DNA of 64,000 bases from Cymodocea nodosa. Lineage: Eukaryota > Streptophyta > Magnoliopsida > Alismatales > Cymodoceaceae. Shown piece after piece: positions 28,805-60,958 of the stretch. The translations under genes and the position numbers were made by a program. The DNA lies in NCBI GenBank assembly GCA_036874045.1, contig CM072336.1:19959001-20023000 (forward strand), written 5' to 3'. Numbering within the stretch: the stretch's first letter is position 1; each line of letters starts with the position of its first letter. Under the pieces are notes generated by a model, which saw only the letters and a list, made by a program, of their open reading frames with translations, had not been told where the DNA came from and made no database searches.

Positions 28805-28809
28805 GTAAT

Positions 28810-29101
28810 CAATTACATACCTTGTTCTTTTGTATCTCCTTCAATATCTTTTGACTTTTGATTCTAAAAAACTTTTCACTCACAAATAAAAGTAGAATAT
28901 ATAACAAAATAACATTTAACAAAACATAAATTGTTAAATCGGTGTCTTGTGTGGAACCTAGGCTCTTATGCCTTTGGTGGCTCACAAGCAAGCAAGTTGG
29001 TTTCCTAAAACAGATACCAACAAACTGGATTGATATTTTATTTTTTTTCTTTTCTAAAAATAAATGCAGAGTATACACAACATAAACGTACAAATCATAG
29101 T
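28810..29101 (-). other. Conserved block downstream of the F-box gene, element C
   Basis: Counterpart of A's 21298-21640. It keeps CTAGGCTCTTATGCCTTTGG and GCTCACAAGCAAGCAAG on the plus strand. The 100-codon minus ORF here (28809-29111) partly parallels a frame in A, but nucleotide conservation explains this. Confidence 0.5.
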
Positions 29102-30241
29102 TTAAGAACATGATTGAAAAATAGTGACAAATGGAATAAATGTGTCAGTCCAAGCAAACTTTTTAGGCATAATTCTTCTTGCTATTAATTCTGTTTTAAT
29201 GTAGTCTGCTCTTTTTTTTAACTTGTAAACTTGTAGTATGTTATCAATACTAAATATAAGTGCATTACCATTAATAAATTAAAATGCAGAAAGGGATCCT
29301 TTTCTGTTCCAAGATAATGTAGTTGTCTCTATGTCTACATATATTTCAATATATTCCTCTTCCCATTTCCATTCATTTAGGTCTTTCATAATCCATAATT
29401 GAAATTTCATCAATTCATCCCACCATCTTATTAGACATAAAGTAGGATCGTCATATTCATTATACCACATTCCTAATTAAATTTTGTCATATTCTGTAGA
29501 TGATGGTTCAGCTATATCACTAGGTATAGGTAATATTTCTATAAAGTCATCATCATAACTATCTATGCTTACCATATATAAATTAGATCTAAATGCAACT
29601 GATATATCCATAACTAAATATATATATCCATCAAATATGACATGTATGTTGTTAAGTAATGCTTTCTATCCTGGATATATCATAGTATTTTCAGTCCAAG
29701 ATCTATTCAGAAAATTATACACACTTAAACATAAATCTTCATCCCAATTTCCAGTTGGTCTCTAGTAATACAATTTTTTAGGAATGGTCAAATTTTTATC
29801 AAAAAATGTTAAAGCTAACCTACAATTTTCAGTTGGTGCTTCAAATCTATTAGGTCTTCCTATATTTTATTCTTCTCTAGTGATAGGATTTCTAATCAAA
29901 ATATCAAGTAACAGAATTGCATACCTTGGTTCGGTTCTGTAAATAATTAATCCTTCATCTATTCCTATAATATGATCTATTCCTTCTAATGTATTTGGTA
30001 GAATTCCAGTATTTTCTTCCATATTCAGATATTCATAGCTGATTGAACTATGATTAAATGACTTCCATAAAAATCCATCTCTAATATTAGTCATTTTTGT
30101 AGCTTGTAATCTATGAAAATATTTTTCTCTAACACATTCTTTAATTTCCTTTGACACACAACACAATTTACACAAATCTTTAGTTGATAAGTTACTCAGT
30201 ACTTCCCTCAATGCATCTAGTGGCAATTTCATCAATTCCAT
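29102..30241 (-). pseudogene. F-box protein gene, second copy (element C)
   Basis: Read on minus from 30241: MELMKLPLDALREVLSNLST then KDLCKLCCVSKEIKE (F-box), then IIGIDEGLIIY, ILIRNPITREE, LGMWYNEYDDPTLCLIRWWD, MKFQLWIMKDLNEWKWEEEY. It aligns with the copy at 20158-21297 over its whole length with many substitutions but few indels. Stops are at different places from A (for example after NPITREE near 29869 and after GSLSAF near 29279), and there is a frameshift in the last 50 codons. That the frame survived largely without indels while substitutions accumulated suggests it was coding before these copies decayed; this is an inference. Confidence 0.82.
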
Positions 30242-30460: not shown

Positions 30461-31714
30461 TCATTCGGCTTCCCTCCCAAAGGAGGTATTAATTTCATTA
30501 ACAGTTCTATTGACAGAGTTAGGTACTGCTTGCATTGGCAATGCTCTAGTAGGTCTAACTTCTATTGAATCCTTTTGTCTAGGAGGTATATTTCTATACA
30601 TATTATGATTTTGAATGGTAGCATTTCCAAATACAAGATCTAGACGATTGTTCAATTGTTGAATTATCTTTTCTAACTTCTCTATTCTAGATCATTGTTC
30701 AATTAATGCTTCATAACTTATATTTTTGTCATTTATATCTTTTCCTCCCTGGAAATTGGCATTTCTCCAAGATAGGTTCAGGTGATTTCTCCAATTAGGG
30801 TTATAACAATTTCCAAAGTTATCTTTCTGGTTTCTAGCATAAATAATATCTAAGTCATTAATGTTTGCATTCTTTTCTGCTTGTTTTTGATTTAATGATA
30901 ACTCTTCTATTTTCTTTATTAATTTAGTTAATTTAACTTCAAGCATAGTGCTTGAATCTATTTCATGCATTCCCCTTTGAAATATTCTTTTATCTGTAAT
31001 AGCTTCAGCTAAGTTTTCCTACTATGCAGTTCTTTTTGCAAAGTTTTCTAAGTATGCCCATGTTTCTTCACTACACAGTTTTAAAAATTCATTCTGACAA
31101 GTAGATTCTAATAAAGATTTAGTTGAAACATCTATGCCTTCATAAATTATATCTATTGACTATGCTTTACTCATTGCATGATGTGGACATTGAGTTAGTA
31201 AATCTTTAAATCTTTCAAAATATTTCCAAAATAATTCTCTCTGTTTTTGACTACACATTAATATTTCCTTTTTCTTTTTAATCGTTTGATGTGTTGGATA
31301 ATATTTTTCCAGAAAAACAAAGCAAAATTCAGTCCATGCAGAAATTGAATCAGGCAATAGAGTATATAACCATCTCTTAGCTATGTCTTTTAAAGCCAAA
31401 GGGATATATCTAAGTTTAATAGCATCAATACTCATGTTCAGTATTTTCATCATTTGACAAACTTCGTTAAATTCTCTAAGGAAATAATAGGCATCTTATC
31501 TTTCTAATCCATGAAAGTGTGGCAATTAATTAATATAATTAGATTTCAGTTCAAACCTATTTCCCTCAAAGTTTAGCAATTGAATACATGAATGTTCATT
31601 AACTAATTTAGGATACAGAATTTCCCCTAATGATTTTTCTACTGGAGTAGTCATATCTTTGTTCTCTTTTAAAGAAAGGTTAGCTACACCCCTAAGGATA
31701 TTGTTAAAGTCCAA
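30461..31714 (-). pseudogene. Athila-type gag, element C
   Basis: One frame of about 418 codons on minus from ATG at 31714, with in-frame stops (for example near 31526, 31500, 31157, 31020 and 30690) but no frameshift. Conserved blocks: FNEVCQMMKI, DIAKRWLYTLLPDSIS..TEF, FLEKYYPTHQTIKKKKEILM, WKYFERFKDLLTQCPHHAMS, then YNPNWRNHLNLSWRN and RALPMQAVPNSVNRT. Capsid protein of the virus-like particle. It is followed by the F-box gene and preceded by spacer, not by the LTR leader. Confidence 0.87.
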
Positions 31715-32569
31715 TTCAGAAAATATTTCAGTACGCCTTTATGTTGAATAATCTTGTGTAGGTATTCTTACTAATCATTTAGTACTAGGAGAACGAATCC
31801 ATGTGCTTATAAACTCTTAACATAAAGTAAAATAGTAGAAGATTAATTACATACCAGACTGATGCTTTGTTTCCAATAAATAGTTGTTGATGGATGAAGT
31901 TGAATTAGCTGCTTCTTCTTCTAGTTCCGCAACGAATTTCTTTTCTTCACTCAAGTGCTGGCAACTCGTAAATAACATTCTGTTCTATATTTATAATGCA
32001 CGTCCATAAGGCAAATGAATCTCATTGCAAGAACGTGTCTTGTAACGTGTAGTATGGTTCCTATTTTTATGGTTACGTGTTCCACTTTCTAATTTCAAAT
32101 TTTAGTAATTGCTAAACCCATGAAGTTTCATTGATGGTTAAAAAAATAACCATTCAGCTTAATCCATGAACTAACCTCGTTGAGTTACAGTTAACTCAAT
32201 GAACTAATCTCTTTGAGTTACAGCTAACTCAACGGACTAGCTTCGTTGCCTATTTGCTAACTCCACGAACTAACTTCATTGAGTTATAGATAACTTAACA
32301 GAGTGATCTTATATTTTATTATTGACCTCGTGGAGTAAAGTGAACTCAATAGACTTACTTCGTTGAGTTAACACTTAGCAACTTTTTTTAAAACTTACTG
32401 CTCATATTAACTTCTATATTTTTCTTCTTCTACATTTTGTCAACTTAGATAAAGTTAAATATATGTCATTAATGTAGTGTTTTAACTTAAACTCATTTAA
32501 ATCTGAACATTATATGTATATTTAACTTACAGTTCATTTCCTGTTATGCAAAATTTACATTTTACTTTT
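31715..32569 (-). other. Element C spacer, gag-proximal part
   Basis: Matches A's 17930-18723 in inverse orientation. Hairpin motifs at 32176-32250 and 32275-32365 (for example CTCGTTGAGTTACAGTTAAC). No ORF. It ends at the D insertion; the last 38 bp (32532-32569) are repeated at 48331-48368 with one mismatch. Confidence 0.65.
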
Positions 32570-34720
32570 TGTAAAGTATCAATTTGTGCATTTTATATAT
32601 GTTAATTCATGCATGTTAAGGATTATAAGTCATCATTATATATGTTCTTATGAAAGATTACATGAAAATCATATTTTTAGACATATGCATGAATTAGGGA
32701 TTAAATAGTTGATAATGTACAAATTTATCCTTTATCAATTAAACACTTAGTCAATAGCCCTTGTATTAGACATAATTCTTATAATTCTTCAATGTATGAC
32801 TTTATATACATTGTATGATTGCCAAATCACTTAAATATGATGTTAAACTAAAGAACTTTAAGTAATTCATGTATGTACATGTGAAAAAGTTGTAGACCAA
32901 AACCTTCCTAATTTGACAACTTTCCATATATGGCAACTCATGCATGCATGTATACTATATTTGCATCATATGATTTATATTCAATGTATATGTGCATCCA
33001 ACTTGGTTTTGAGTTTTATAGGTCAATAAATCATGAAATCAAGGTGGATCAAAGAGGAAAAAAAACGTGGGCCATTGGACGCAACTTATTGGAGCCCAAG
33101 CAACAAAAGCCTAGAGTATTTAAAGTGTTTGACCACTCAATTGTAGGCTATCTCCTCCTCTTCCAACACATTGCAACCGACGGTTCTAGCCATTCCAGCA
33201 TCTTCATCCGGAAAGTCCCATCTTCCCCTTGATCTTGAACAAGCTCCATTCAAGAATGGTGAGCTTTGACGTCTTCCACTCCTCCTAGAAGACACCTTCT
33301 CTTCAATTCAGACGGCCATATGTTAGGATCTCTTTGGGCATTCATCTTGGTGGGTTGGGAGGCTCGTGTGACTGATTTGGAGTGGAGAAAAAGGTTAGGA
33401 TCTTCAGGGTTGAGTCATCGGAAGCTCCATTCTTAGATGTGGAAGCCAAAGTTATGGGTCTTGGAGGCAAGATCTTGAGGACGTGCACCACTCTTCTTCA
33501 AGGCAACCTTAGAAGCTTCACTTGGACATGCTACAGGTGGTGACAACCCTGTGGAGCATCGATTTCAAGGACTTTGAGGAGTCATTGCTTGAAGAAACGT
33601 GGAGGATTAAAAGGTATGATGGAAAGGAGAGATCCTCATACTAGTTTTCATGTTTTACAATTTTATATGTATGAGTATAGTTTGTGTATGTGGAAGAACA
33701 AAATTCTATGCATAAATCTTTGTTTCAAATGTTCTAAATTAAAGATTATATATTGTTTTGATGTTAATTGATATAAGAATTAAGTTCATATCATATGTTT
33801 CGTGTGAATGATGGTGATGGTGTAAATTGTGAAGGCAGTTTTCCGTTTCTTAGATGGCCAGAATGTTAGTAGCTTTTCTTCGAATTGTATGCATTTGTTC
33901 GTCATCTCTAAAATCTATTTTTTTGTTTCGTTTTGTAAGTATAATGAGTGTATAACAAGTTTACAAAGTTTTAGAATTTTTTAGAATGTTTTTCGAATTC
34001 GATTTTATTTTGTGAAGGTATCAGTGGTTTTGAGTCTCTATTGAGTGCTAGTTTTGAGCTCGACGCCTGTGCTGTGCTTGCATCGTGTATTTTGTGGAAG
34101 TCAGTTCTGTAAATTTTCTTTGTTAGTGTAACGGATCTACTTTCAAGGCGTGCTTATTTCGTAGCATTTCATGAAGATTTGACAGAGATTTGATTTTTGA
34201 ACCGAATGTGCATTTTTGGAAAGTTTCCATAACCGTCTGCGCCCCTTTCTTAAATAAGATATTGCCAGTGTTTTAAGTTGATTTAATCCACGAAATCACT
34301 GCCATTTTAAAGATATTCTAAGGATCTTTCCAACCATTATTTATTCTGGATTTTTAAACGTTCAAGTTGGAAGTTATTAGAGTTAAAAGTCGAGTGTAAA
34401 TTCTGTGATTTCTGGATTAATACTCATTGATTTCTTAAATATCTTATCATAACTAATTAGATTTTGGGGTAATCTTATAAACCTTAATTGTGCTACGAAT
34501 TTTGTATATTAATATTAAGTAATTAGAGTTTAATTATAAATTAGTTTAATGTGGATATTTAATTAGATAATCATTTTAATAAAATTATTTAAGACAAACT
34601 CCTTGTGGATTTGACCCGTACTTGCACATGCTTATTACAATGGGCACCGTGCGCTTGCAGTTATAAATGTAAAATTTGCACTTTTGCCGTTTAATTTAAC
34701 AACACATAAAAGCGTTTACA
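32570..34720 (+). repeat. Element D 5' LTR
   Basis: TGTAAAGTATC...CGTTTACA, so the ends form a TGTAAA/TTTACA inverted terminal repeat. U5 block GTGGATTTGACCCGTACTTG. A 100-codon ORF (32930-33232) recurs in the 3' LTR only because LTRs are duplicated; it is not counted. Confidence 0.95.
33117..33125 (+). promoter_or_regulatory. Putative TATA box of element D LTR
   Basis: TATTTAAAG in a GC-richer neighbourhood, preserved in the 3' LTR at 46723-46731. Plausible core promoter; not proven. Confidence 0.4.
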
Positions 34721-34726
34721 AGTTTT

Positions 34727-34744
34727 TGGTGCCGTTGTCGGGGA
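34727..34744 (+). other. Primer-binding site (tRNA-Asp type), element D
   Basis: TGGTGCCGTTGTCGGGGA starts six bases after the LTR. It equals the Asp-type TGGCGCCGTTGCCGGGGA with two C-to-T changes. Confidence 0.9.
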
Positions 34745-36672
34745 GTTTTGGTGCTTTAAAATGATTTATTAAGATGATTTGCAAGATTTAATATCCTTTA
34801 AATTGTTTTAGTTTTATTTGTTTTCTTGTTGAGTTATTATTTTTCTTTGTTTGTTTGCAAAGAAATGGATACATGGATTGACTGTTCTATGTGTTCAATT
34901 CTTTGTTATCTGAATTGCTTGTTACATGTTTAATTCAAGTTTATGATTTGGTGACAAGTAGCTTAATGGAGTAATGATAATCTTTGTGTACAAGTTATTA
35001 AGACAGAATCTGTCTGTCTGTAAATTTAAATTTTTTGATGTGCACAAGATTAGAACTCATTTTTATGATATTTTTCCTGAAATACTCGGTTTTTGAGATT
35101 TCCTTTGATTAGTTATGCATAAAATTCTGATTAGTATGTTAAAAGATAAAAATTTTAGAAAACAGGGATGTTTTACAGAATTCTGGATAGGTTTCTGTTA
35201 ATGAATTTTGAAAATATGATATTATTAAAGTATGTAAAATTTAATTCAGTGATTTTTTCCAAAAAGTACATGAAAATATCTTTACAACGAGTATTATAAG
35301 CTTCATTTGGATTTATATAGATTTATGTGTGAATTTTTAAAGTTGGCATATCAGATTTAACCAATATTATGAAAATCGGATAGTCAGGGGTATAATTGTC
35401 CGAACACTTCATGAAAAACTCAAACAGTTACACCTAACTATCCAAGTTTTCCCTGACCAAAACTCGAACAGTTACACCTAACTATCCGAGTTTTCCCTGA
35501 CCAAAAATCGGATAGTTAGGGTGAGCTATCCGATATCTATCGGATGGTTATTTTCTGGTGAAGAACAGTTTTATCTGAACTCTTATATTTGAAACTTCAG
35601 ATACATGTTTGAATAAAACTTATTTTTGAAATTTTTCTATGAAACTACATGAGTTTACTTTTCCAAAAAGGTATTATACGTTGTATTTGGACTTATATAT
35701 ATTTCTGGAGAATTTTTCTAAGATGATATGTTCTGTAGATTACGAATTTATGTTGTCTGAGGTTTTACATAATTTTGATAATACTTCAGTTTTGGAAATT
35801 TTTATCTCTGATTTTTTATAAAAACTAGAAGTAATTACCTTTCAGAGAAGTATTTAATTGTAAATTTTGGAGCTGTATAAATTTCTGTGTGATTTTTTCA
35901 AGTTGAGATATTTAGCTTTCCCTCTAACCTTCCGAAATTTTTTTGCCATTTCAGAAGGTTAGGTAGTTAACCTTTCGAAATCTTCATATTCTGCTATTTT
36001 TCGGAAGGTTAACCAGTAACCTTTCGAAACTTTTACCTTTCCGGAAGGTTAGGTGGCTAACCTTCAGAACTCTCTATGAGTGCAGTTTTTCTGATATTTC
36101 TCTTTATCTGCATGCTTATAATCGAAACTGCAATTAAATGTTGAGTTAAAAATTATTTTTGTAATTTTTCCTTGAAACTAAAGTAGTTTATCTTTCAAAC
36201 AAGGTATTATACGTTATATTTGGATTTGTATACATTTCTGGGGAATTTTTCTAAGATGACATGTTCTGCAGATTACGAATTCTGAGTTATCTGAGTTTCA
36301 CCCGATTTTGACAACGCTTCAGTTTTGGGAACTTTTTGTCTCTGATTTTTCTTAGAAACTAGAAGTAATTACCTTTCAGAAGAGTATTTATTTGTGAATT
36401 TACATGCTATATGAGTTTCTGTAGAAAACTTTTAAGCTAAGGTAGTATAGTTTAGTTTCAGAAATTCCATGACTACTTGTTTTAGATGAAACTCAGATTA
36501 TATACAAAGTTTGCGAGATATATGCTTTGCTGTTTGTATCTAGAATTTAGTGGTATGATAATAGAATAGTCATTGAATGAATCTACGAAAAATTAAGTTT
36601 CAAGTAAAAGAAAAAAATAATTGTTTATCAATTTTTCTATTATGTTGCAGATTTACTTAAATCACTTGAAGA
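34745..36672 (+). other. Element D leader with tandem duplication and inverted repeats
   Basis: About 1.9 kb without a long ORF. A segment is duplicated with a period of ~533 bp (35670/36203 and 35824/36358), and a weaker third copy begins near 35290. Quasi-palindromes: CGGATAGTTA type at 35375-35560 (units separated by TTTTCCCTGACCAAAA) and GGAAGGTTA..TAACCTTTCG type at 35930-36075. It ends with TTCTATTATGTTGCAG (36635-36650), a good 3' splice site just before the pol frame, so the leader may be an intron; no donor was identified. Confidence 0.65.
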
Positions 36673-38118
36673 TTGTGCTTGATTGAATACATTCGGTTTG
36701 TTCATTTAGTTGAAAATTTGCATGCCATTCTAGATAAATATTTAATTTATAATATGGATGAATTTAGTTTTGATTTGACATCTACATGTTCCAAATGCAA
36801 ATTGAATAATCACGTTGATGCTGATTGCCCATTTTATATGATAAATAGCAAAGTAGATGCATGTTCTAATTCTAATGTTAGCCTATATATGCCAAATTTA
36901 AATTATAATGTTGATGCTTATGACACTAGTAGCTATAGTTGTGAAATTAAAATGGAATAGCCTATAGGAAATATTTCCTATGTTGTATCTTCAGTAAACT
37001 TAGCTAAGGCAATTGCTGAACTTAACACCTCTATGGATTTATTAAACTTAGCAAAAGCCTCTAGTGCCCCCATTGACATAGATGGTTATGAAAACATAGA
37101 TTTAAGATCAACATCCTTGGTTGAGGATGAATCAATTAAAACTTATGTTGCTTTAAGGTCCGGGAGAGAGGTGAGCATTCCTGAAAAGGAAACTCCTTCT
37201 CTTGTACCGATGAGTGTTCCTACAGATGATTTAGGTTCATCCAATCAACTAAATAAAGAATCTGAAAATGAAATTTTATTGGGTGATAAAAAGGGTAAAG
37301 GTAAGTTATCCGAGGTAAGTATCCCTTTAGAAAGTCAACCTGCCCCTTTTCCCCATAGATTAAGAACTCCACATAAGGATATTGATCAGAATATTAAGAT
37401 GAGAGAAATCTTTGAACAGGTTAGTATTAACATTCCATTACTAGATGCAATAGAGCAAATACCTGCATATGCCAAGTTTTTAAAGGAATTATGTACGAAG
37501 AAGCGAGCTAGGAAGACACCTATGAAAGTGTGCTTAGCTAAATTCGTTAGTGCCTATTTCTGCCAAGACTTGCCTAAGAAGTTTAGTGATCCAGGTACTC
37601 CAACCATTTCTTGTACAATTGGAGATACCTATTTTGATAGAGCATTGATAGATTTAGGAGCAAGAGTAAATGTTATGTCATCTAGTGTTTATGTGAACCT
37701 AGGACTTAATGGTATTCAACCCACTAAGGTTCTCATTCAACTAGTTGACCATTCTTTTAGAACTCCCTTAGGAGTTGTTGAAAACATATTGATTAAGATT
37801 AAAGATTTTGTCTATCCCATAGACTTTATTGTCTTAGAAAATCAACCTTCACTTGGTAGAAAGCAAAATGTGCCCCTTATTTTAGGAAGACCCTTCCTAG
37901 CCATAGCAGATGCATATATAGGATGTAGAGATGGGTCTATGCAAATAACATATGGTGATGCTAAGGTTGATTTAAATATTTTTAAATGTCACCTAGACGT
38001 TAAAATTTTAGATAATGAAAATTTTAATGTGAGCTTATTAAGCATTATGGATGAAGGTGAGGGGGTAGAAAATTATAGTTTATTTAAAGATGAAGATTAT
38101 CCACCTATAGAACATTAG
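36673..38118 (+). pseudogene. Element D zinc-knuckle and protease part of pol
   Basis: One frame with stops at 36958-36960 and 38116-38118. Order: zinc knuckle CSKCKLNNHVDADC (36787-36828; C-x2-C-x4-H-x4-C), a spacer, the junction block ALRSGREV (37150-37173; in ordinary Athila elements the equivalent LRSGK block follows gag directly), MREIFEQVSINIPLL, then aspartic protease TISCTIGDTYFDRALIDLGA with the DLGA catalytic motif (37651-37662) and LILGRPFLA. The usual capsid part of gag, expected upstream, is absent; only the knuckle precedes the protease. The start at 36673 is a convenience; translation could begin further down. Confidence 0.88.
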
Positions 38119-39814
38119 GTTGATCTAGCACATATCTATGACTTAGATGATGACATTGGTGAGAGTGATAATATTTTTGAATTAAATTACATAGAGCCTT
38201 TAGAAAGAGATTTAGGAGAGATTAAGAAACCATCTATTGTAGAACCACCTTCTCTTGAACTAAAACCCTTGCCTCAAGACCTTAAGTATGCCTATTTGGG
38301 AAAAGAGAACAACTTGCTAGTTATTTTGTCTTCCCATCTTTCTAGAGAACAAGAAGAGAAGTTGTTGGTAATTTTAAAAGAACATAAGGAGGCCATTGGT
38401 TGGATCATGGCCGACATCAAAGTAATTGACCCTAGTTTATGTCAACATAGAATTCATTTGAATAATGACATTACACATTCTAGGGACCCATAGAGAAGAT
38501 TAAACCCAAACATAAAAGATGTGGTTAGAAAAGAAATTATTAAGTGGCTAGATCATGACATCATTTATCCTATTTCTGATAGTCCTTGGGTTAGCCTTGT
38601 TCAGGTTGTCCCAAAGAAATCTGGTATTATAGTTGTAGAAAATAGCAATCATGAACTAGTCCCTACTAGAGTGCAAACAGGATGGCAAGTGTGTATTGAT
38701 TATAGAAAACTAAATACCGCCACTAGGAAAGACCATTTTCCCTTGCCTTTTATGGATCAAATGTTAGAGAAGTTAGCTGGGCAAGAATATTATTGTTTCC
38801 TAGATGGTTATTCTGGATATAACCAAATTCCTGTAGCACCTTGTGACTAAGAGAAAACCACATTCACATGTCCTTTTGGTACTTTTGCATTCCGGCACAT
38901 GCCCTTTAGTTTGTGTAATGCTCCTGCAACTTTTCAAAGGTGTATGACTGGAATCTTTTCAGACATGATTGATAACTTCTTAGAGATTTTTATGGATGAT
39001 TTCTCTGTGTCAGGGTCTTCCTTTGATGTGTCTTAAGAATTTAGAATTGGTTTTAAAAAGATGTATAGAGAAAAATTTGGTTTTAAATTGGGAAAAATGC
39101 CACTTCATAGTGCAACATGGAATTGTGTTAGGCCATGCTGTTTCTAAGAATGGGTTGGAAGTAGATAAGGCCAAAGTAGACTTGATAGCCAACCTACCAC
39201 CCCCTAAATCTATTAAGGATATAAGAGAATTTTTGGGTCATGTTGGGTTTTATAGACGATTTATTAAGGATTTTAGTAAGATTACCCGTCCTTTAACTAG
39301 TTTATGATCAAAGGATCATAAGTTTGAATTCTCTAGAGAATGTCAAGATGCCTTTGATAAGCTTAAGGGAGTCCTCACCTTAGCCCCTATTGTGTATCCA
39401 CCCGATTGGTCTCAACCATTCGAGTTGATGTGTGATGCATCGGATTATGCAATTGGTGCTATGTTGGGGCAAAGAATTGATAAATTACCTAGGGTAATCT
39501 ATTATGCTACTAAAACTCTTAATGCAGCCTAATTGAACTATACAGTTACAGAGAAAGAATTTTTAGCTATAGTTTTTGCTCTTGAGAAGTTTAGATCTTA
39601 TTTGCTAGGCTCTAAAGTTATCATTTTCACTGATCATTCTGCCATTAAATATTTATTAGCTAAAAAAGATGCTAAGGCTAGATTAGTTAGATGGATTCTT
39701 CTCTTGCAAGAATTTGATATTGAGATAAAAGATAAGAAAGGATGTGAGAACGTAGTTGCCGACCACTTGTCTCATATTGTCACGCCTCAAGGGGAGTTAC
39801 CCATTGATGAATAA
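38119..39814 (+). pseudogene. Element D reverse transcriptase and RNase H
   Basis: Continues the protease frame. RT blocks: [65 protein letters not shown] and an intact FMDD (38989-39000), then VLNWEKCHF and [18 protein letters not shown]. RNase [61 protein letters not shown]. Stops at 38491, 38848, 39305 and 39530; a frameshift near 39030 (after SSFDV). Athila type by sequence; more decayed than A's pol but with the catalytic YxDD-equivalent kept. Confidence 0.9.
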
Positions 39815-39829
39815 TTTCCTGATGAGCAG

Positions 39830-41117
39830 TTGATGGCTATAACTCCAATCCCTTGGTTTGCAAATATTGTGAATTATCTTGTGACAAAACGACTACCTAG
39901 CAATTGGTCAAGGCAAGATATTAAGAGATTTTTAGCTAGGGCCAAAGAATTTTATTGGGATGACCCCTATCTTTATAAGTTAGGCCCTGATTTGATTTTG
40001 AGGAGATGCTTCCTAGATATGGAAATCCATAGTGTGCTATCTTTTTGTCATGACCAACCTGTTGGTAGTCATCTTAACCCTATTAAGACTGCAACTAAAG
40101 TTCTTCAATGTCGTTTTTTCTGGCCCACATTGCATAAAGATGCATACTCCTATGTTAAGAATTGTAGAGATTGTCAAAAAGCGGGAAGATTGACTAGAAG
40201 AAATATGATGCCGCTTACACCAATTATTGAAGTTGAAGTATTTGACATGTGGGGTATTGATTTCATGGGACCCTTCCCTAATTTTGGAGGTTATTTGTAT
40301 ATTCTGTTAGCTATTGATTATGTGTCCAAATGGGTTGAAGTTATTCCCACACGGACTTGTGATTCTAAGGTAGTAATAAATTTTATTAAGAGCAACATTT
40401 TTGCTAGATTTGGCATTCCTAGAGCAATCATTAGTGATAGGGGAACACACTTTAATAATAGAAGTTTTGAAGTATTAATGAAAAAATTTGGAGTAAACCA
40501 TAAAATGACAACCCCCTATCACCCACAAACCAATGGACAAGTAGAGAATGCCAATAAGCAAATTTTGGAGAAGATAGTAGGAAAGACAAGAAAAGATTGG
40601 GTAGAAAAGTTAGATGAGGCATTATGGGCTTATCGGACTGCTTTTAAGTTTGTTTTAAATATGTCATTTACCAGTAGAGCTTGAGCATAAGGCAAGATGG
40701 GCTATTCAAAGACTCAACTTAGATTTAAAGGCTGCTGGTAAGAAGAGAAAATTTCAATTGACTGAATTAGAAGAAAAACGGAGAGAGGCATATGAGAATT
40801 CACGGATAGCTAAAGAAAAGAGTAAAGTATTTCATGATAGCAAGCTCTTCCGTAAGAATTTTGTAGTAGGGCAGCAGGTATTGTTGTATAATTCTAGACT
40901 ACATCTATTTCCTGGTAAGTTAAGATCACGGTGGATAGGACCTCTTGTGGTAAAAAGTATGTTTCCTCATGGAGCAGTGGAGATTGAAAACCCTAAGAGT
41001 GGGGAAGTTTCTAAGGTCAATGGCCACCGTTTAAAACATTTCTCGCAGCAAATATTATTTGGCCATGAAGAGAATATTGTTTTAATCGATGCTGTCTATG
41101 CTGAATCTGATAATTAG
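39830..41117 (+). pseudogene. Element D integrase
   Basis: HHCC zinc domain (FCHDQPVGSHLNP...CRDCQKAGR), catalytic core with MWGIDFMGPF, ISDRGTHFNNRSF and NGQVENANKQ giving the D,D,E residues. Then, after a short deletion and frameshift at about 40670 that removes the FRLVYGK-CH block, the C-terminal GPF/Y-like module LHLFPGKLRSRWIGPLVV. It ends at TAG 41115-41117 after DAVYAESDN. In the normal family the element's coding part would end here; instead gag follows. Confidence 0.9.
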
Positions 41118-41319
41118 TGCTCTTTTGTTTTTCTTTTTATTAGTTTTAGATGTAATTACTCTTATTTCTTTTTGTTGATTTTGTCATTATGTAAATCTTG
41201 TTTTTCAATTATGTACTTACCTATCTAACATGCACGTGTTGGGATTAGAGACTATTCCACTGTAAGTGTCATTTGTACCTTTTTCTATCAAAATATTTCT
41301 TTTGTGATATTGTTAGTGT
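41118..41319 (+). other. Integrase/gag intergenic region of element D
   Basis: 202 bp, T-rich, with CACGTG near 41234 and ending TTTGTGATATTGTTAG (41301-41316), a possible 3' splice site four bases before the gag ATG. No LTR-like sequence, which argues against two fused elements. How gag was translated is not evident. Confidence 0.5.
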
Positions 41320-42678
41320 ATGCAATCTTCTAAGTGGGTGAGAGATAGTGCATCTAGATTACTTAGACAAACCCCTTTAGAAGAAGAAGTTAGTGTGTTA
41401 GAAGAGCCTGTAAGGATGGGAGACCAAGGTAGAAATCAACAATTACCTTCTCTTGAGGGCATCTGCTATCCTCAAATACATGACCATCCCTCTTGTCTTG
41501 TATTGCCACAGGTAGATGGACATAAATTTCAATTGCATATGAATTATGTCAATCAGTTGCCTAGATTTCATGGACTAGATAAGGAAGATGCATATGCATT
41601 CCTGAATGACTTTAATGATGTTTGCAACATGATTAATCTACTTGAAGTGCCTATTGATGCAATAAAGTTGAGATTTATTCCTTTTGCTCTTCGATATGAT
41701 GCGAAACTATGGTTGAACACCCTTCCTGTTAATTCCATTTGTACTTGGACTGATTTTTGTGGTGTCTTTATTAAGAAATTTCATCCTTTGCATAAGACCA
41801 TTCAAGCTAAGAATGCTATTCTAAACATCTGTCAGCAAACCAATGAACCTTTTTGGAAATATTTTGAACGTTTCAATAAACTAGTGGCAAGATGTTCTAA
41901 TCATGGTCTACCTAAATCAAGATAGTGTCAAGTAATCTATGAAGGATTGGATTATCAAACCAAGTTGATGTTAGAATCTGTATGTCCTGGATGATTCATG
42001 AGATTAGATGAAGTCAGTGCATGGGATAGACTTGTGGACCTTGCTGAGAGAACAATGGAAATGGAAAGTTCATCAGATAGAACATTTGACAGAACTTTGG
42101 AAAGGGGAATGCACACAGTAGACCCCATGGTAGGCATGGAAGCTAGGATGTCGTCCATGGTTAAAAAAGTAGATCTGATTATAAGTCAACAAAAGGGAAA
42201 AGATAAAGTGATTGAAGTCAAGTGTATAGCATGTGGAATTCCTGGGCACATCATGGAAGAATGCCCTGCAATGCAAGGACAACAGTTTGAGGAAGTCAAT
42301 GCCATTGGTATGGGATAAAGTTCATTCCAACCGTCATCACACTATACCTCGGGATGGAGAAACCATCCCAATTTTTCATGGCAACAACCGGAAGCACCTA
42401 GAAACCGTACTGAGCATCATGGACCCACTCAGCCAAATTTAAATGATAGAATGTTCGCTTTGGAGAAAAGATTTACTGAAATGGAGAAAGGGATTCAATC
42501 CCTAATTCAAGTTAGTGGACAAGTAAATCCCATTTTAGCTAGCCATGACCAAATCATTAAGGGATTAAAAGCAAAGTTTGATAGGTTGTCTACTTCATCT
42601 GGAGGTAGAGCACGGGGAGAATTACCAAGTAACACTGTACCAAATCCCCGCTTGACAGGTGTGCATTTGGCACAATGA
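41320..42678 (+). pseudogene. Element D gag (capsid and zinc knuckle) downstream of integrase
   Basis: One 452-codon frame with three stops (41923, about 41990, 42316) and no frameshift. Blocks: LPQVDGHKFQLHMNYVNQLP, RFHGLDKEDAYAFLNDFNDV, PFALRYDAKLWLNTLPVNSI, FIKKFHPLHKTI, WKYFERFNKLVARCSNHGLP. This is the Athila capsid region. Then comes zinc knuckle CIACGIPGHIMEEC (42223-42264), the WRNHPNFSWQQP block and RARGELPSNTVPNP near the end. This last block normally precedes the LRSGK block and protease; here LRSGRE is found 5.5 kb upstream at 37150, so the two sides of the gag/pol junction have been swapped. It is followed by the internal polypurine tract. Confidence 0.92.
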
Positions 42679-43970
42679 GAGACTTCAGGAACTAACCCTT
42701 CACCATCTACATGAGTAGATATAAAAAAAAAAAGAAAAAAAAAAAAGAAAACAAAAATTCCTTTTTGTTAGTATTTTTATTCTTAATCGCATGCTATAGT
42801 TCTGTTTATATAAATTTCTTTTCTATTTTGATATGTTTGTTAGTTTTGTAGTTATTATTTTTCTTCATCAAGCAAGGTACGCACTCTTCACCTTATTTCT
42901 GTATGATGCATTTGAATGATACATGTATTGAACATTATTTCTTCAGCATACTACTCAATCTCCATTGTATGTTTTAGGAATAATACAATTTAAATTTACA
43001 CATGTGCATATGGATTACATGCTAGATATGGGGGTGTAATCTGTCCTTGCTTGTCATAGTTTGTTTCTTTTATTTTTGTCGTCTTCATGCTTTTTATCTT
43101 ATTGCCTAAATACTTTCTTTTACATTGGGGACAATGCAAGATTTAGGTATGGAGGGAGGCATTTGACGATAGTTTTTTTCGATTTTGTACTTTTCTTGTT
43201 TATTTTGTTTTATAAATGCTCATAGGCCTTAATGGATATAGTTCTTTTAGGTATAATTGAGACCTAAAAGTGAATCCTTTAGGAAAGAAACCTTGAACCT
43301 TAAGGGGAGGAGAAGAATAAAATTCAAAACCATCCATATTTTTGAGCTTATATGTAGTATTGCACTTACATAAGGCCTTGATTAGGAAGGAACCACTCCT
43401 CTTGAAGGGAAACTTAGGTAAAAACTTAGGAATATACCTTGGGGTTGTCCTATGAGAAGGGTAGAATAAAACGACTAAGGTAAAATTGCCCGTTCCTACA
43501 CAATGATGTAGGAGGCACTCTTAAGGGTAGAGGGCTAGGGAGAGAGAACAAAAAAAACAAGAAAAAAAAAAGAAAAAAAGAAAAGAAAAAGTAGAAGAGA
43601 GATTGATTACTTGTTCTTACAAAAGCTACTAAGTAACCGGTCAACTTTCCCCTAAGTAAGGGATTGTGGTCGCGTAAAAAGGTGTTGGAGTAGGAGGTAA
43701 TAAAAAGAAGAAGAAAAAAAGAGTCAAAATAAAAGGATAATGGACTCAAGGATAGACCTTTGGGATTACCTAGGTAACTTGGAGGGAGTTGAGTAGGTTA
43801 TTTCTTAGTCTTGGCCAATTTCACATACACTTATTTATATGGTACTTTACTTTCTTAGGATGAAAATTGAATGATTATTTGAATCCAATCTAGAAAGGTG
43901 AGAGGTGATTGAATAAAGGTGAAGCTAATAGGTTAAGACTACTTAAGAGCAACTTTATCCATGTTTAGGA
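42679..43970 (+). other. Element D non-coding region with internal polypurine tract
   Basis: A-rich run at 42722-42752. The tract AGGTATGGAGGGAGG (43145-43159) is preceded by TTGGGGACAATGCAAG. Further on, purine-rich runs on plus produce a spurious minus ORF (43450-43749). The block GCTACTAAGTAACCGGTC.. GGGATTGTGGTCGCGTAAAA (43626-43680) recurs in remnant J at 50072-50130. No env-like ORF. Confidence 0.65.
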
Positions 43971-45848
43971 TGTTAGGATCGATAGGCTCACCAAAGGGGG
44001 GGTGAATGGTGAAAGTGTGTATTTTTAAAATTCTTTAAATGTTGAATCGAATAATTCAACAAAAAATGAAATGAGATGAAACAGATATAATGCAAATTAA
44101 CAGAGATAAGAAACACACAGCAAATTTTTAGGTGGTTCACCAAATTGGCTAGTCCACCCCCAAGGTTCACTTGGGCTTCACTAAGTGTATCAACACTTAC
44201 ACACTTGCTTTCAGGTCAAAGCAAGAACCAACTACACAGAAGTTTTTAGGTAAAAACTTCAGTAAACCAACCTCTAGAGTTTTCAGATCGAAACTCAAAC
44301 CAACACTGTATGTAGCTTTTAGGTTGAAGCCACGAACCAACAGCTTTAAACCTTCAATCAGAGTTTTAGCGCAAGAGCTTTTTCTGCAATGGATCTTCTG
44401 AAAATTTTTCACTATTTGTAGACTTGAGTGTAAATGGAATTCGAGTGTAGCTCACTATATATCTCTGCCATATATCTATTGTCTGTATTTTGAATATATA
44501 CTTGATATGTACAACGATCATATTTTCCTCCAACAGATGTATTCTACTGTACTTAATTAGGATCAAGTCCCAATATGGCAAGTGACCGTTCAGAAAAAAC
44601 GTTTCAAGTCAACTTACTGATTTTCCTATTCTTTCGGATAGTTAGCTATGCAACTCTCCGAAGAGTAACTGTAACTCACCAAAAGATCACTTATCATTTA
44701 CTGCCAGGTAGGATTCCAGAATATTTAAATGTGAGCTATCATCCAATCGGATACTTATAACTGTAACTCACCGAATAGTTGTATACTTGACTTTGTCGAA
44801 TTTCGGAAGGTTATCTTGTAACTCACCGAAATTCTTCAGGATTTCGAATAGTTATTTTTCTAACTCTCCGAAAACTTATTTGAACCACTGTCTAGAATTC
44901 TGCACGTGGGAAATTCGATAACTTAAGTTTCGGATGGTTAAACTGTAACTCACCGAAACTCTTTTGAAATTTCGGATAGTTATCCTTCTAACTCTCCGAA
45001 AACCTATTTGAGCATCTATCTGGATTTCTGCACGTGGGAAATTCGATGACTTAAGTTTCGGATGGTTAAACTATAACTCACCGAAACTCTTTTGAAATTT
45101 CGGATAGTTATCCTTCTAACTCTCCGAAAACCTATTTGAGCATTTGTCTAGATTTCTACACGTGGGAAATTCACTGACTTAAGTTTCGGATAGTTAAACT
45201 GTAACTTACCGAAACTCTCTTTTTAAAATTCGGATAGTTATCCTAACTCTCCGATTTTCCCATTTAACTTTTCAACTGTCGGCTTCCTCCATTTTGCACG
45301 TGCGTAAAAAATGACTTAAGTTCCAGAAAGTTATGCCTGTAACTTACCGAAAAACTCGAATAGTTATCTAACTCTCTAAAAAGAAAACTCAGATAGTTAT
45401 CTAACTCATCGACAAGTCTTTTAAACTTCCGTTCTGTATTTCTGCACGTAGTTTATTGAATGACTTAACTTTCGGATAGTTATACCTGTAACTCTCTAAA
45501 AAGTCCATTAAGCTTCCGGATAGTTATCTCCTTAACTATCCGATCATTCAATCCCTTTAACTATCTGATTAAATAACTCTCCGAAGGCTTTGTAAAATCG
45601 GATAGTTATTCTTTTAACTATCCGATAGCATTGCTGCTGCTTTAAACGTGCTCTTTGGATACTTAGACCTGTAATTGTCCGATTTTGCTGAATCTTCTTG
45701 ATCTGTTCATTTGGAACCTTCTTGATCTTTTCATTTGCCTGGAAATAGTTCTAATAGCCTTTTGATCTAATGCAGTAAGACTTTACTGTGAAATACAATA
45801 TGTTTCCTCACATAGGTTTTGCATTATCAAAATACTCGGGTACTAACA
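43971..45848 (-). mobile_element. Solo TR-GAG LTR inside element D
   Basis: On minus: TGTTAGTACCCGAGTATTTTG to CGATCCTAACA, matching the TR-GAG LTRs in start, module array and end. CACGTG or near-CACGTG sites at 44903, 45031, 45159, 45297 and 45447 are spaced 128-150 bp. Around them lie CGGATAGTTA..TAACTCTCCG and TTTCGGATGGTTA..TAACTCACCGAAA quasi-palindromes and ACTTAAGT. No matching flanks were found, so the TSD has decayed or the LTR arose by recombination between different copies. Confidence 0.88.
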
Positions 45849-46175
45849 CGGAAACCAAGAGCATATTTTCGGTTTTTTTGTCTTTTAATTGTGTTGTTTT
45901 ATGTTTTGTTTTGGATTTTGTGGGTATATCCGTTGAAAACCCTCTAGAGACACAACTCTACCACTAGGGTGACCTAGGGGTTTAAAGGCTTGCTACACAT
46001 GCTAAGTGTAGTTGTGATCCCTACGAAAGTGGCCTAGGTTAGTTTTATTTTTGTTATTTATTTCTTAGTTCGTTTGTTTTGTTTTTAATGAATGTGCTTT
46101 TATATGGGCTTTGTGTTATCATTGTTTAGCTTTAGTCCTTTGCTAAGGGACTAGCAAAGACTAGGTATGGGGGTG
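45849..46175 (+). other. Element D 3' end with terminal polypurine tract
   Basis: Non-coding; ends CTAAGGGACTAGCAAAGACT then AGGTATGGGGGTG (46163-46175) abutting the LTR. The same GGGACTAGCAAA lead-in precedes the second tract of family B (23051-23067), showing common ancestry of D and family B. Confidence 0.8.
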
Positions 46176-48326
46176 TGTAAAGTATCAATTTGTGCATTTT
46201 ATATATGTTAATTCATGTATGTTAAGGATTATAAGTCATCATTATATATGTTCTTATGAAAGATTACATGAAAATCATATTTTTAGACATATGCATGAAT
46301 TAGGGATTAAATAGTTGATAATGTACAAATTTATCCTTTATCAATTAAACACTTAGTCAATAGCCCTTGTATTAGACATAATTCTTATAATTCTTCAATG
46401 TATGACTTTATATACATTGTATGATTGCCAAATCACTTAAATATGATGTTAAACTAAAGAACTTTAAGTAATTCATGTATGTACATGTGAAAAAGTTGTA
46501 GACCAAAACCTTCCTAATTTGGTAACTTTCCATATATGGCAACTCATGCATGCATGTATACTATATTTGCATCATATGATTTATATTCAATGTATATGTG
46601 CATCCAACTTGGTTTTGAGTTTTATAGGTCAATAAATCATGAAATCAAGGTGGATCAAAGAGGGAAAAAAACGTGGGCCATTGGATGCAACTTATTAGAG
46701 CCCAAGCAACAAAAGCCTAGAGTATTTAAAGTGTTTGACCACTCAATTGTAGGCTATCTCTTCCTCTTCCAACACATTGCAACCGACGGTTCCAGCTATT
46801 CCAACATCTTCATCTGGAAAGTCCCATCTTCCCCTTGATCTTGAACAAGCTCCCTTCAAGAATGGTGAGCTTTGGCGTCTTCCACTCCTCCTAGAAGACA
46901 TATTCTCTTCAATTCAGACGGCCATATGTTAGGATCTCTTTGGGCATTCATCTTGGTGGGTTGGGAGGCTCGTGTGACTGATTTGGAGTGGAGAAAAAGG
47001 TTAGGATCTTCAGGGTTGAGTCATCAGAAGCTCCATTCTTAGATGTGGAAGCCAAAGTTGTGGGTCTTGGAGGCAAGATCTTGAGGACGTGCATCACTCT
47101 TCTTCAAGGCAACCTTAGAAGCTTCACTTGGACGTGCTACAGGTGGTGATAGCCCTATGGAGCATCGATTTCAAGGACTTTGGGGAGTCATTGCTTGAAG
47201 AAACGTGGAGGATTAAAAGGTATGATGGAAAGGAGAGATCCTCATACTAGTTTTCATGTTTTACAATTTTATATGTATGAGTATAGTTTGAGTATGTGGA
47301 AGAACGAAATTCTATGCATAAATCTTTGTTTCAAATGTTCTAAATTAAAGATTATATATTGTTTTGATGTTAATTGATATAAGAATTGAGTTCATATCAT
47401 ATGTTTCGTGTGAATGATGGTGATGGTGTAAATTGTGAAGGCAGTTTTCCGTTTCTTAGATGGCCAGAATATTAGTAGCTTTTCTTCGAATTGTATGCAC
47501 TTGTTCGTCATCTCTAAATTCTGTTTTTTTGTTTCGTTTTGTAAGTATAATGAGTGTATAACAAGTTTACAAAGTTTTAGAATTTTTTAAAATGTTTTTC
47601 GAATTTGATTTTATTTTGTGAAGGTATCAACAGTTTTGAGTCTTTGTTGAGTGCTAGTTTTGAGCTCGACGCCTGTGCTGTGCTTGCATCGTGTATTTTG
47701 TGGAAGTCAGTTCTGTAAATTTTCCTTGTTAGTGTAATGGATCTACTTTCAAGGCGTGCTTATTTCGTAGCATTTCATGAAGATTTGATAGAGATTTGAT
47801 TTTTGAATCGAAGGTGCATTTTTGGAAAGTTTCCATAACCTTCTGTACCCCTTTCTTAAATAAGATATTGCCAGCATTTTAAGTTGATTTAATCCATGAA
47901 ATCACTGCCATTTTAAAGATATTCTGAGGATCTTTCCAACCATTATTTATTCTGGATTTTTAAACATTCAAGTTGGATGTTATTAGAGTTAAAAGTCGAG
48001 CATAAATTCTATGATTTCTGGATTAATACTCATTGATTTCTTAAATATCTTATCATAACTAATTGGATTTTGGGGTAATCTTATAAACCTTAATTGTGCT
48101 ACGAATTTTGTATATTAATATTAAGTAATTAGAGTTTAATTATAAATTAGTTTAATGTGGATATTTAATCGGATAATCATTTTAATAAAATTATTTAAGA
48201 CAAACTCCTTGTGGATTCGACCCATACTTGCACATGCTTATTACAATGGGCACCGTGCGCTTGCGGTTATAAATGTAAAATTTGCACTTTTGCCGTTTAA
48301 TTTAACAACACATAAAAGCGTTTACA
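46176..48326 (+). repeat. Element D 3' LTR
   Basis: 2,151 bp, same length as the 5' LTR, about 2.7% different by eye count. It is followed by AGTT and then the 38-bp copy of the left flank. Confidence 0.95.
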
Positions 48327-48765
48327 AGTTGTTCATTTCATGTTATGCAAAATTTACATTTTACTTTTCAACATGCAGATATATTTAGACATTCCCAATC
48401 ATTGTGCATTTAACCATGTCATTAATAAAATTGTAAAACTTGTAACACAGTTCTGTAAATTCTTATACAGTTATATAATATTCAATTTCAACTTTAAATC
48501 ATTCGTTCACAATTACATAAATTCAGAAACATCTGAAATTCAAACATTCATTTATATAAATAGTTTACATTTACATATAGCTAGATATATATTTTTTTCA
48601 ATATAATACAAGTAGATGAACAATACATTTAGTCCTTCTTCCTAAGTTCATCTACTTCCTTCTGAAGCTTTTCTAATTGTTGTTCTAACTGATTTATACG
48701 TTCAACAACTCCTATAAATTCTCTAGAAGGTATAGATATCTCAGCAGTTGCAACATTATAACTGA
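48327..48765 (-). other. Element C spacer, LTR-proximal part, with coiled-coil ORF remnant
   Basis: On minus, the frame 48769-48629 reads ...ATAEISIPSREFIGVVERI then NQLEQQLEKLQKEVDELRKKD and stop: about 45 residues ending in a heptad-like coiled coil. Its N-terminus is lost at the junction with the LTR (48766). A keeps only the last ~17 residues (17630-17684). It may be the tail of an additional ORF between integrase and gag; identity unknown. The rest is AT-rich spacer, beginning with the 38-bp repeat at 48331-48368. Confidence 0.55.
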
Positions 48766-50515: not shown

Positions 50516-51205
50516 AACAAAAATTGTATTATGCATAAAAATTGGGGGAGTGCTAGTCTCTCACGTAGGCTTCCATCCTCTTGACCTATTCTATAGCATT
50601 CTACATAGTTGGTCCTCCCTATTCACACTTTTGATTATGACAAAAAGGGAGAGAAATCTAAACATCAAGATTAGATATTGCTTTTATGTAGGGGGAGCAT
50701 TGGTTTTCAATAGTTTTGTCTTCGTGAAAAAGGGGGAGATTGTTAAAAATAACTTTATATGAAATATAAATTCTAATACTAATATGTTATTTTGATGATG
50801 AAAAACCCTGATATTTAATTGAAAATCTCTCATTAGTATATTTATAAGTTGTGGTCACTAATTTGTATTTAAGTATTAGAACGAAGAGTTGGAAAAAGAA
50901 CAAACACTTTATTGTCACATGACTCGAAAAGCTAAAATTTGGTAACTCTTTCTTTGAAATCTCGTAGAGTTATGATTGCAAAACTCGTATAGTTATGGTG
51001 TTATGCGCTTGTGCTTTAAATAACTTAACTTCTTCATGTGTTTCCCATACACTTCTTTTAACGTTATCAAATAGTTATGATAATTGTTCAAGTTTTTCGT
51101 ATGGCTATTTGATAATTGTTCGAGTTTTGTAAGACTAACATTTTAAGTTAAGTTTTGTAGGTCACATGCTTTACATGTGAGAAACTCGAAGAGTTAAGAG
51201 ATAAG
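50516..51205 (+). mobile_element. Copia element E: 3' end and start of 3' LTR
   Basis: Purine blocks TTGGGGGAGTGC, AAAAAGGGAGAG and AGGGGGAGCATTGG lead to the polypurine tract AAAAAGGGGGAGAT (50727-50740) and an LTR starting TGTTAAAAATAACTTTATATG (50741), matching the LTR at 610. The LTR is cut at 51205 by element G (target ATAAG at 51201-51205). No coding sequence in the visible part. Confidence 0.75.
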
Positions 51206-53367
51206 TGTTTAGAATGAAAAAGTACATAATATTAACGGTTAAATAATGGTTAATTGCATAATATTTAGTTTATCATATGAGAATTAAGCCATTATGTTAT
51301 AATTGCACTATTATATGCCTTAATAAAAGAATCTGCATAATTTCAAGGAATTAGTGTTAATTAAATACATTTTTGCATTGTTGGTGAGTTATAGGCTTTG
51401 AAATTCTTAAATAACCGAATTGTTTGTTATTTTGGAGAGTTACATTTCATATACTTAATAGTTATGTTTTGAATGCTTAAAGAATACTTTATTATTTCAT
51501 GAAGGGCATGTGTTTTAACCTTAATACATGACTTAAGTGGATTTTCAGTAAGTTAGATGCTAACTATCTGAAATGTATCTAAGCATCAGATAGTTAGGTT
51601 TGCAAGTATCCAAAATACCTTTTTTATCATAAAACTTATTGAGGACACATGTCGTGATCTAGAAACTTGACTTAAGTTATCTTTCGAAAGGTTAGGTGCT
51701 AACTATTCGAAATGCATATAAGTTTCGGATACTTATAGTTTGTAACTATCCAAAATATCTTTTTATTCGTTAAGTTAGAATTATGCATATGTTGAATTTA
51801 AATGTTTTACTATGTCATGTGAGCTACACATGTTTAACTCGTTAAGTTAGCATAACTATATGCGTTGAGTTACTTGAATATACACTAAGGTAACGTGTTG
51901 TGTTAGTGTTATAAGTTATTTCTTTATTGCACGTGTTTTATTGTTAAGTCAACGAAGTAAATCTGTTGAGTTATACTAACTCCATGGACCACTTATTTTC
52001 TAACATGCCATTGTAGCAGTTGCAAAAACAAGAAATACGAAAGAAAACCATGATTACACGTATCACGCAGGAATTAACTTGTGGAATGAAGAAGAAATCA
52101 CCATCGTAGATACAAATGAAGGAAATCCAACCGATCATTTAAGCAGAAGTAGTTACTATTGAAAGAAATATAAAAGAAGAGGAGAAAAACTATGTGAGGG
52201 TGTGTGAAGGTGGAGGATCGCGCTAACTGTAGGAAGTGTCGGAAGTTCCCTGAAGCTCCACAACACCACCAAAATCACAAACCATTGGAGGTCTGTGAGG
52301 ATACTTTTGGATGTCGGGACGATTCCAAGCCAAACACGGTGACTGACAACCACTATGAGGAGTGATCGTGTCGCAAGAAGGAAAGCCATTTTCACTAAGC
52401 ACTGACTCATATCTCAAGAGATCGTAAAGCTTCTAGCCTTAGTTTCAGGTTGATGCTAGTATACTGAAGAGGAGATCAACTTACAAGTCTTAGTTCACGA
52501 TTCTATAGGGAGAGGAGGCAAGACTGTAAGTGATTAAGTGTTCAGTGGTGTAATCACATCGCATGTAGTGATGGAAGTTTTTATTGTCGATAGAAATTTT
52601 TTACATTTCACCTTCACTCATCTTCAAGAACATATCAAAACAAAAATACCAAAAACAACTAATTATCTGTGTTTACATTTAGTATTAATGTGTTGTATTG
52701 TTTGTTTTGTATCGTGATTACTGTTATCATTGTTAGTACTATGAATATTTTATGTTTGTTTGATTCAGAAAATAGAAAATAGTTTTATTGTTTACTAAAA
52801 TTGATTCGTCCAGAATACTTAAAAATTTTAATGGTTACTGTTTGAAATATCTAAATGTTAGTTTTACTTAATGACAAATCTCAGATTAACTAACATTAAA
52901 AAGCTTAATTGATGTTATTTACATTCTATGGAAATGCCCAATGGATGGCTGAATTTCTTTGTGAATAGTAGTATTTAACTAGAAAGATAGGCTCATGGAG
53001 TTAACTTAAGTCCACAAGGTTAGTCCATTGAGTTAACCATAACTCCACGAACTAAGTCCATTAAGTTAGTTGTAACTCAATGAAGTGTTTAACTGAACAC
53101 ATATAAACTCCAATATAAAAATTAAAATAGTACACAATTCTTACTCAATCTCTATAGGATCAACCTGTACTTGCATACAAATACAATATACATTGTACAC
53201 TTGCAATTAAGAACAAATTAGATTTAATATCTAATTTGTGAAAATTATTTGTTTACTTTTAGTAGAACTTATAAATATACATTTAAAAGTAATTGAACAA
53301 AAGAATATTTACTTCTTCATAAATAAGTTTTCTAACGTCGTCATAGGGGATTGAGAAGCTAAGCAAT
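51206..53367 (+). repeat. Element G 5' LTR (family B)
   Basis: Begins TGTTTAGAATGAAAAAGTAC. TATA-like TATAAAAG at 52169-52176. U5 block GGATCAACCTGTACTTGCAT near 53159. The end is not sharp: 53333-53350 (TAACGTCGTCATAGGGGA) matches 11 of 18 bases of the Asp-type primer site, so the LTR ends either just before it (about 53330) or at GCTAAGCA (about 53367), depending on whether that stretch is the primer site or an LTR-internal relic. Hairpins at 51545-51760 and 52990-53080. Confidence 0.75.
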
Positions 53368-53545: not shown

Positions 53546-53565
53546 GGTTAGATCACACGAACAAA

Positions 53566-58004: not shown

Positions 58005-58006
58005 AT

Positions 58007-58018
58007 TGGTATCAGAGT
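58007..58018 (+). other. Primer-binding site of TR-GAG2
   Basis: TGGTATCAGAGT, two bases after the LTR end; the standard copia initiator-Met type. Confidence 0.9.
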
Positions 58019-58058
58019 AGGTTGATCTTTTTTTTTATAGATTTAACCATCTTAGGTC

Positions 58059-60944: not shown

Positions 60945-60958
60945 AAAAAGGGGGAGAT
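60945..60958 (+). other. Polypurine tract of TR-GAG2
   Basis: AAAAAGGGGGAGAT directly before the 3' LTR. Confidence 0.9.

Follow-up and report, generated by a model that had tools for sequence, protein, structure and literature searches.

Element D, a long terminal repeat (LTR) retrotransposon on the plus strand at 32570-48326 of a 64,000-nucleotide stretch of Cymodocea nodosa DNA (contig CM072336.1, positions 19,959,001 to 20,023,000; hereafter the window), carries its pol gene ahead of its gag gene. To our knowledge, LTR retrotransposons and retroviruses place gag 5' of pol. We consider it highly probable (roughly 90%) that D represents a multi-copy Athila-type lineage of the Ty3/gypsy group in which the coding genes have been permuted about the gag-protease junction, that this layout is near-fixed among the copies we examined, and that the permuted unit transposes. 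The parts of D, including reverse transcriptase (RT) and the relevant open reading frames (ORFs), are as follows.

32570-34720, plus strand: 5' LTR of D, opening with TG and closing with ACA; AGTTTT follows, ahead of the primer site
34727-34743, plus strand: primer-binding site of tRNA-Asp type; 2/17 mismatches to the tRNA-Asp 17-mer
36754-37149, plus strand: Pol start; M, a CX2CX4HX4C zinc knuckle from 36787 and a spacer reaching the LRSGRE block; interrupted in D by a single stop
37033-38118, plus strand: protease ORF (PF13650) with the LRSGRE block at about 37150
38119-39814, plus strand: RT and RNase H; broken in D by stops and a frame change
39830-41117, plus strand: integrase, comprising core and C-terminal part, with a single frame change
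41118-41319, plus strand: integrase-gag spacer (202 nt); four ATGs, with TTGTTAG, resembling a splice acceptor, 4 nt ahead of the gag ATG
41320-42678, plus strand: complete gag, from a natural N-terminus through a capsid domain (PF03732) and a CCHC knuckle to LPSNTVPNPR near its end; interrupted by three in-frame stops
43116-43156, plus strand: 41-bp stretch 3' of gag, common to element A (below) at 90%
43951-45848, minus strand: solo LTR belonging to a different element, nested in D and outside its plan
46162-46175, plus strand: polypurine tract, directly before the 3' LTR
46176-48326, plus strand: 3' LTR of D

Pfam and tblastn searches gave the domain order as a knuckle ORF (36673), protease, RT, RNase H and integrase (to 41117), followed by a full gag, just as a first-pass annotation made from the letters alone had read it; within pol, the RT-RNase H-integrase order is that of Ty3/gypsy elements. 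The boundaries proposed there, two 2,151-bp LTRs with a primer site and a terminal polypurine tract, were all recovered, and the primer site at 34727 is the sole site in the window with at most 4/17 mismatches. The LTR pair is 97.2% identical (53 transitions and 7 transversions across 2,155 columns; Kimura two-parameter distance, K2P, 0.0286), which at a rate of 1.3e-8 would date the insertion to about 1.1 million years ago. D had also been called complete. It runs from LTR to LTR with all domains present, but it is not intact: its frames are broken, and a foreign solo LTR is nested within it.

The position of two short blocks indicates where the usual order was opened. The capsid domain lies in 41320-41922 (PF03732, E 8.6e-15), LPSNTVPNPR stands near the end of gag with the stop shortly after, at 42678, and the LRSGRE block sits ahead of the D protease. 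Among 12 relatives compared, P0010, P0030 and P0035 carry both blocks in one protein ahead of protease, which bears out the earlier proposal that blocks adjoining in ordinary Athila elements have been separated in D, one ending gag and the other preceding protease. Judged by the placement of these blocks, the break in the permuted order is between LPxxxxPNP and LRSG, that is, at the gag-protease junction. At its other end the D gag opens with MQSSKWVRDSASRLLR, and because this resembles the starts of relatives P0004, P0006 and P0008, we regard its N-terminus as natural. The spacer at 41118-41319 holds no LTR, leader or primer-site remnant (the best primer-site match has 9/17 mismatches), in agreement with the first-pass annotation; the only match to LTR or leader is 19 bases on the opposite strand with E 0.03. 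A hidden LTR between pol and gag was accordingly rejected, there being no LTR or leader match of note.

To find other copies of the family, we searched the 374.6-Mb source assembly with the D gag and scored the best 40 of 552 first-look candidates. These 40 matches, 95-100% identical to the query, resolved into 30 loci: D itself (L001) and 29 others at 96-97%. Six stretches of 8 kb and the flanks of three copies were also analysed. In 28 of the 29 other copies gag is immediately preceded, on its own strand, by the C-terminal part of integrase; the exception is L015. Copies with gag upstream of protease, which the first-pass annotation had named as refuting its reading, were sought and not found: no protease follows gag in any of the 30 copies (over about 1.1 kb after gag), and no capsid precedes protease in any of the four long stretches with an intact 5' side. 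The order protease-RT-integrase-gag is seen in five of the six 8-kb stretches, with protease partial in L036; in L033, sequence 5' of the RT end has been replaced. Because nearly all copies we looked at have pol followed by gag, the layout is an inherited one and not a one-off rearrangement. An assembly error or isolated rearrangement at 41117-41320 might have been suspected of an order contrary to the usual plan in a repeat-rich, nested region, but with the junction order repeated on many contigs, in all but one of the 29 other copies, and a copy flanked by a 5-bp target duplication, we rejected assembly error and give this explanation a negligible chance.

That last copy, C18, has both LTRs, a primer site (2/17 mismatches) and a target duplication, CATTC; its LTRs differ by a K2P of 0.0086, measured over the first 818 aligned LTR positions only. 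Both D and the C18 copy show the TG..CA LTR pair, primer site and purine tract of LTR retrotransposons. The C16 copy likewise has both LTRs, the 3' one rearranged and its right end unprocessed-looking, and in the C7 copy the 5' LTR is disturbed. Because there are thus two further LTR-to-LTR copies, one of them carrying young LTRs and flanked by a duplicated 5-bp target, we conclude that the permuted unit transposes, and the earlier suggestion that a transposing lineage had adopted pol-gag order is borne out by the 28 copies and the C18 insertion.

The junction itself occurs in two forms, both in integrase-gag order. Form 1 is shared by 22 of the 30 copies, including D; form 2 is carried by seven (L003, L007, L010, L019, L020, L024 and L028), and L015 is cut at this point. 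Compared with form 1, form 2 is 84-88% identical in the C-terminal part of integrase and about 73-78% in the gag N-terminus (over 67 nt only in L020), and its spacer is unmatched in five of the seven, whereas the remainder of these copies is 95-96% identical. The integrase-spacer-gag segment of form 2 has the look of an exchanged piece in a sharp mosaic. Its donor was, most simply, a diverged element that would also have had integrase before gag.

The knuckle at 36787 had been taken for a leftover of gag. It is instead the N-terminus of Pol, because the frame is open from its ATG into protease in L032 and L034; the knuckle region is present in four of the six long stretches, and the frame is shifted in the remaining two, L031 and L035. 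The accompanying proposal, that gag was duplicated downstream and the 5' capsid part then lost, stays conjectural; blastn and tblastx found no similarity between the 5' stretch of D and its own gag region. The permuted order could have arisen by such a gag duplication behind pol with loss of the front capsid, or by fusion of tandem elements with loss of the intervening LTR, and the knuckle at the start of Pol fits both. Fusion of two neighbouring ordinary elements, spreading later as a unit, would yield exactly pol-then-gag and would leave gag with its natural start. The lack of LTR, primer-site or leader remnants excludes it as the present state of D, but as an ancient origin it competes with duplication and is a possible, if less than even, prospect.

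A second LTR family in the window, represented by elements A, C and G, appears to follow the same plan. These share an LTR (type X) that blastn finds unrelated to that of D, and their parts are listed here.

14453-17026, plus strand: RT-RNase H-integrase of element A; open frame of 857 codons
18628-20018, plus strand: gag of element A, 3' of integrase; disrupted by frame changes and stops; LPIQAIPNP...SSGRA at its end, with no protease behind it
23082-24880, plus strand: 3' LTR of element A; type X, ends approximate, purine tract before
29867-30241, minus strand: F-box ORF of element C (PF00646, 7.9e-11), between gag and the 3' end
30758-31633, minus strand: gag of element C, same family as that of A
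51206-53322, plus strand: 5' LTR of element G; type X, ends approximate; a degenerate primer-site-like stretch follows
53480-55784, plus strand: coding part of element G; some 160 nt past the LTR a degenerate knuckle, followed by protease and a portion of RT

In element A, RT begins at 14360 and integrase runs to about 17.1 kb, with pol and gag on one strand about 1.5 kb apart; the spacer between them has no LTR, its only type-X LTR or leader matches being short (up to about 90 bases) and in repeats. The gags of A and C end near the same junction as the D gag, with no protease behind either, and element G has no capsid match ahead of its protease. RT identity between A and G is 79%, and the D gag is 49-50% identical to the gags of this family. 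Assembled from three incomplete copies, the second family thus appears, in pieces, to repeat the arrangement of D. Such pieces could also arise if capsid-less pol elements of the BARE-2 kind and gag-only elements of the TR-GAG kind, acting as complementary partners, had been mistaken for one plan, as G without a capsid before protease and C without pol might invite one to think. Against this, both genes lie inside one LTR pair in D and in the C18 and C16 copies, and A carries the two genes together on a single strand, separated by some 1.5 kb; we therefore judge a mistaken pair of partners very improbable.

Phylogenetic trees, which the first-pass annotation had proposed as a check on Athila membership, were built without an outgroup from another lineage. 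The gag tree (32 rows) separates D, P0001, A and C from 28 other gags with support 98/99, and P0001, a database gag on a 1,744-base contig, groups with D at 99/96, a hint that this gag clade may extend beyond the present genome. The unrooted RT tree (8 rows) separates A, G and D from five references at 88/88, and A and G from the rest at 100/99. This split fits a common D-A-G lineage, short of proof; the D RT, 62-70% identical to the five references, is nearer to reference P0016 (70%) than to A (64%). The D protease has 2472 matches, and the 120 listed are 37-56% identical to it; we take these relatives to be Athila-type from hallmarks of that lineage. D itself has the pol and gag homology and the tRNA-Asp primer site of Athila, and lacks a gag placed first and fused to protease. 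Scans of viral contigs (with integrase, gag and a gag alignment) and one of genome contigs returned no relative, Rfam at the gathering threshold and tRNA scans gave no match, and a PDB search gave nothing significant.

Several observations count against a lineage of this kind. The core-protease tree (47 rows) nests D in a 14-row reference group (91/99) and puts G outside all; D and G sit there on very long, decayed branches, which makes protease trees unusable for these two, but at face value this tree opposes a single D-G lineage. Element A is cut at RT with its 5' end gone, C lacks pol, and G ends within RT. The C16 copy lacks a recognisable primer site (best match 7/17 mismatches), and the acceptor-like site before gag is found in form-1 copies and is absent from form-2 copies and from A. 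The pol and gag frames of D hold several stops, pol also two frame changes, and at least one stop occurs in 19 of 30 projected 603-nt gag stretches, the three in the D gag lying further on. Finally, the ratios of nonsynonymous to synonymous substitution (dN/dS) within the family, which are 0.27-0.40 for capsid, 0.54 for the gag C-part, 0.51 for protease, 0.60 for RT and 0.87 for both integrase and the knuckle-spacer region, stand beside values of 0.54 and 0.93 in two non-coding controls, the stretch after gag and the leader. Because of these controls the within-family ratios are weak evidence and we largely set them aside; the pooled value of 0.26 for 41320-41922 in addition mixes in the exchanged segment.

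Broken frames in D, stops in 19 of 30 sampled gag stretches and high within-family dN/dS in pol pieces (integrase 0.87) would all be expected of a non-autonomous family, in which a single defective element acquired the permuted order and is mobilised in trans by an Athila of ordinary gag-pol layout, its own gene order going unused. Against this, capsid has a dN/dS of 0.12 between the two junction forms (dS 0.188, dN 0.022); the same comparison gives 0.36 for the C-terminal part of integrase and 0.40 for the gag N-terminus. The ratio is 0.23 for D-A gag (with dS saturated), 0.39 for A-C gag and 0.38 for A-G RT. The 857-codon pol frame of A has stayed open, the Pol start runs into protease in L032 and L034, and a second LTR family, only 49-50% identical in gag, has the same plan in pieces. 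We think movement in trans unlikely.

How such an element might express its genes can be sketched only tentatively. The proposed plan runs LTR, primer site, Pol (with its own ATG, knuckle, protease, RT, RNase H and integrase), a separate gag, purine tract and LTR. By analogy with foamy viruses, Gag and Pol might be made as two proteins with no Gag-Pol fusion, a scheme to which we give somewhat less than even odds. Pol would be translated first, from the full-length RNA, and would be brought into particles by the RNA-binding knuckle it carries, with no need of a Gag fusion. Gag would come from a spliced or other subgenomic RNA, which we propose because some 4.6 kb, including four spacer ATGs, separate gag from the start of Pol. 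Splicing in particular is a guess, because the acceptor-like TTGTTAG is absent from form 2; splice-site scores from a rough weight table carry no evidential weight.

Known elements resemble D in part. Foamy viruses make Pol without a Gag fusion, from a spliced pol with gag 5' of it; the likeness lies in the way of working proposed for D, and the gene order differs. BARE-2 lacks gag and TR-GAG carries gag only, whereas the family of D has both genes in one unit. The Gmr1 type is, like the family of D, a Ty3/gypsy group with altered coding-domain order (PMC2774666). In D gag has moved behind pol, whereas in Gmr1 elements integrase occupies a Ty1/copia-like position in pol and gag is still first. 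With the Athila lineage (Athila, Calypso, Cyclops, Diaspora) D shares protease, RT and gag homology, long LTRs and a single CCHC motif in gag. It also shares a tRNA-Asp primer site 5-6 bp past an LTR ending in CA, as in Diaspora (PMC1142308). It has pol first and gag as a separate downstream gene, unlike Diaspora, which is described as a single gag-pol ORF of ordinary plan (PMC1142308). Vicient and Casacuberta 2020 give LTR elements as LTR, gag, pol and LTR with added ORFs after pol (PMC7264820). D resembles plant elements with such additional ORFs (env-like or aORF) in having an ORF between pol and the 3' LTR, and differs in that this is its own complete gag and no extra gene. No precedent for a pol-before-gag LTR element emerged from the open-licence literature searched, a weak negative as several queries used rare exact phrases, and none is described in the portions available of PMC2577118, PMC11963269, PMC9904347, PMC2633040, PMC6317226, PMC7264820, PMC2774666 and PMC1142308.

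A natural lineage with reversed order suggests that the coupling of gag to pol is dispensable. The ratio of Gag to Gag-Pol is usually set at the gag-pol junction, and this lineage makes it testable how a Gag:Pol ratio is set, and Pol packaged, without a fusion. More generally, it is perhaps an even bet that D belongs to an old Athila-type clade, comprising at least two LTR families here and probably others, that has permanently uncoupled Gag from Pol by placing gag behind pol, that replicates with Gag made on its own beside a Pol bearing the knuckle, and that has been overlooked since surveys discard unexpected domain orders. Neumann et al. 2019 always removed elements with unexpected domain order as likely mispredictions (PMC6317226), and similar lineages may stay hidden for that reason.

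D lies inside another element, C. Around it we observed a target duplication of about 38 bp with one mismatch (32532-32569 and 48331-48368) and no 5-bp duplication, with AGTT next to its 3' LTR. The right end of the C16 copy (L039/L040) is similar, ACA followed by AGTTTTT, with a duplicated GCRTTTAGTTATG stretch. Both look like the capture of unprocessed complementary DNA ends and not like ordinary integrase joining.

In the second family, element C reads, after gag on its minus strand, F-box ORF, purine tract and LTR start, and a host-type gene may thus occupy the usual place of the env-like ORF in A and C; the ORF at 20680-21297 (plus strand) after the gag of A has no Pfam match. C also contains a type-X solo LTR (26850-28810, minus strand) with a 5-bp duplication, ATTAC; in A the corresponding site is empty. 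A partly palindromic repeat of 33 bp recurs at 17523-17612, 32159-32295 and 52994-53068, in type-X LTR sequence and in the pre-gag region of A and C, and the left flank of the G LTR (50741-51210) recurs at 610-1096 with 85% identity. Two further paired-LTR elements, at 4980-11717 and 56306-62674, are nested in type-X sequences (LTR K2P 0.081 and 0.066); their LTRs are of the same type as the solo LTR within D (70-80%), and the element at 56306-62674 has a copia-type gag by Pfam.

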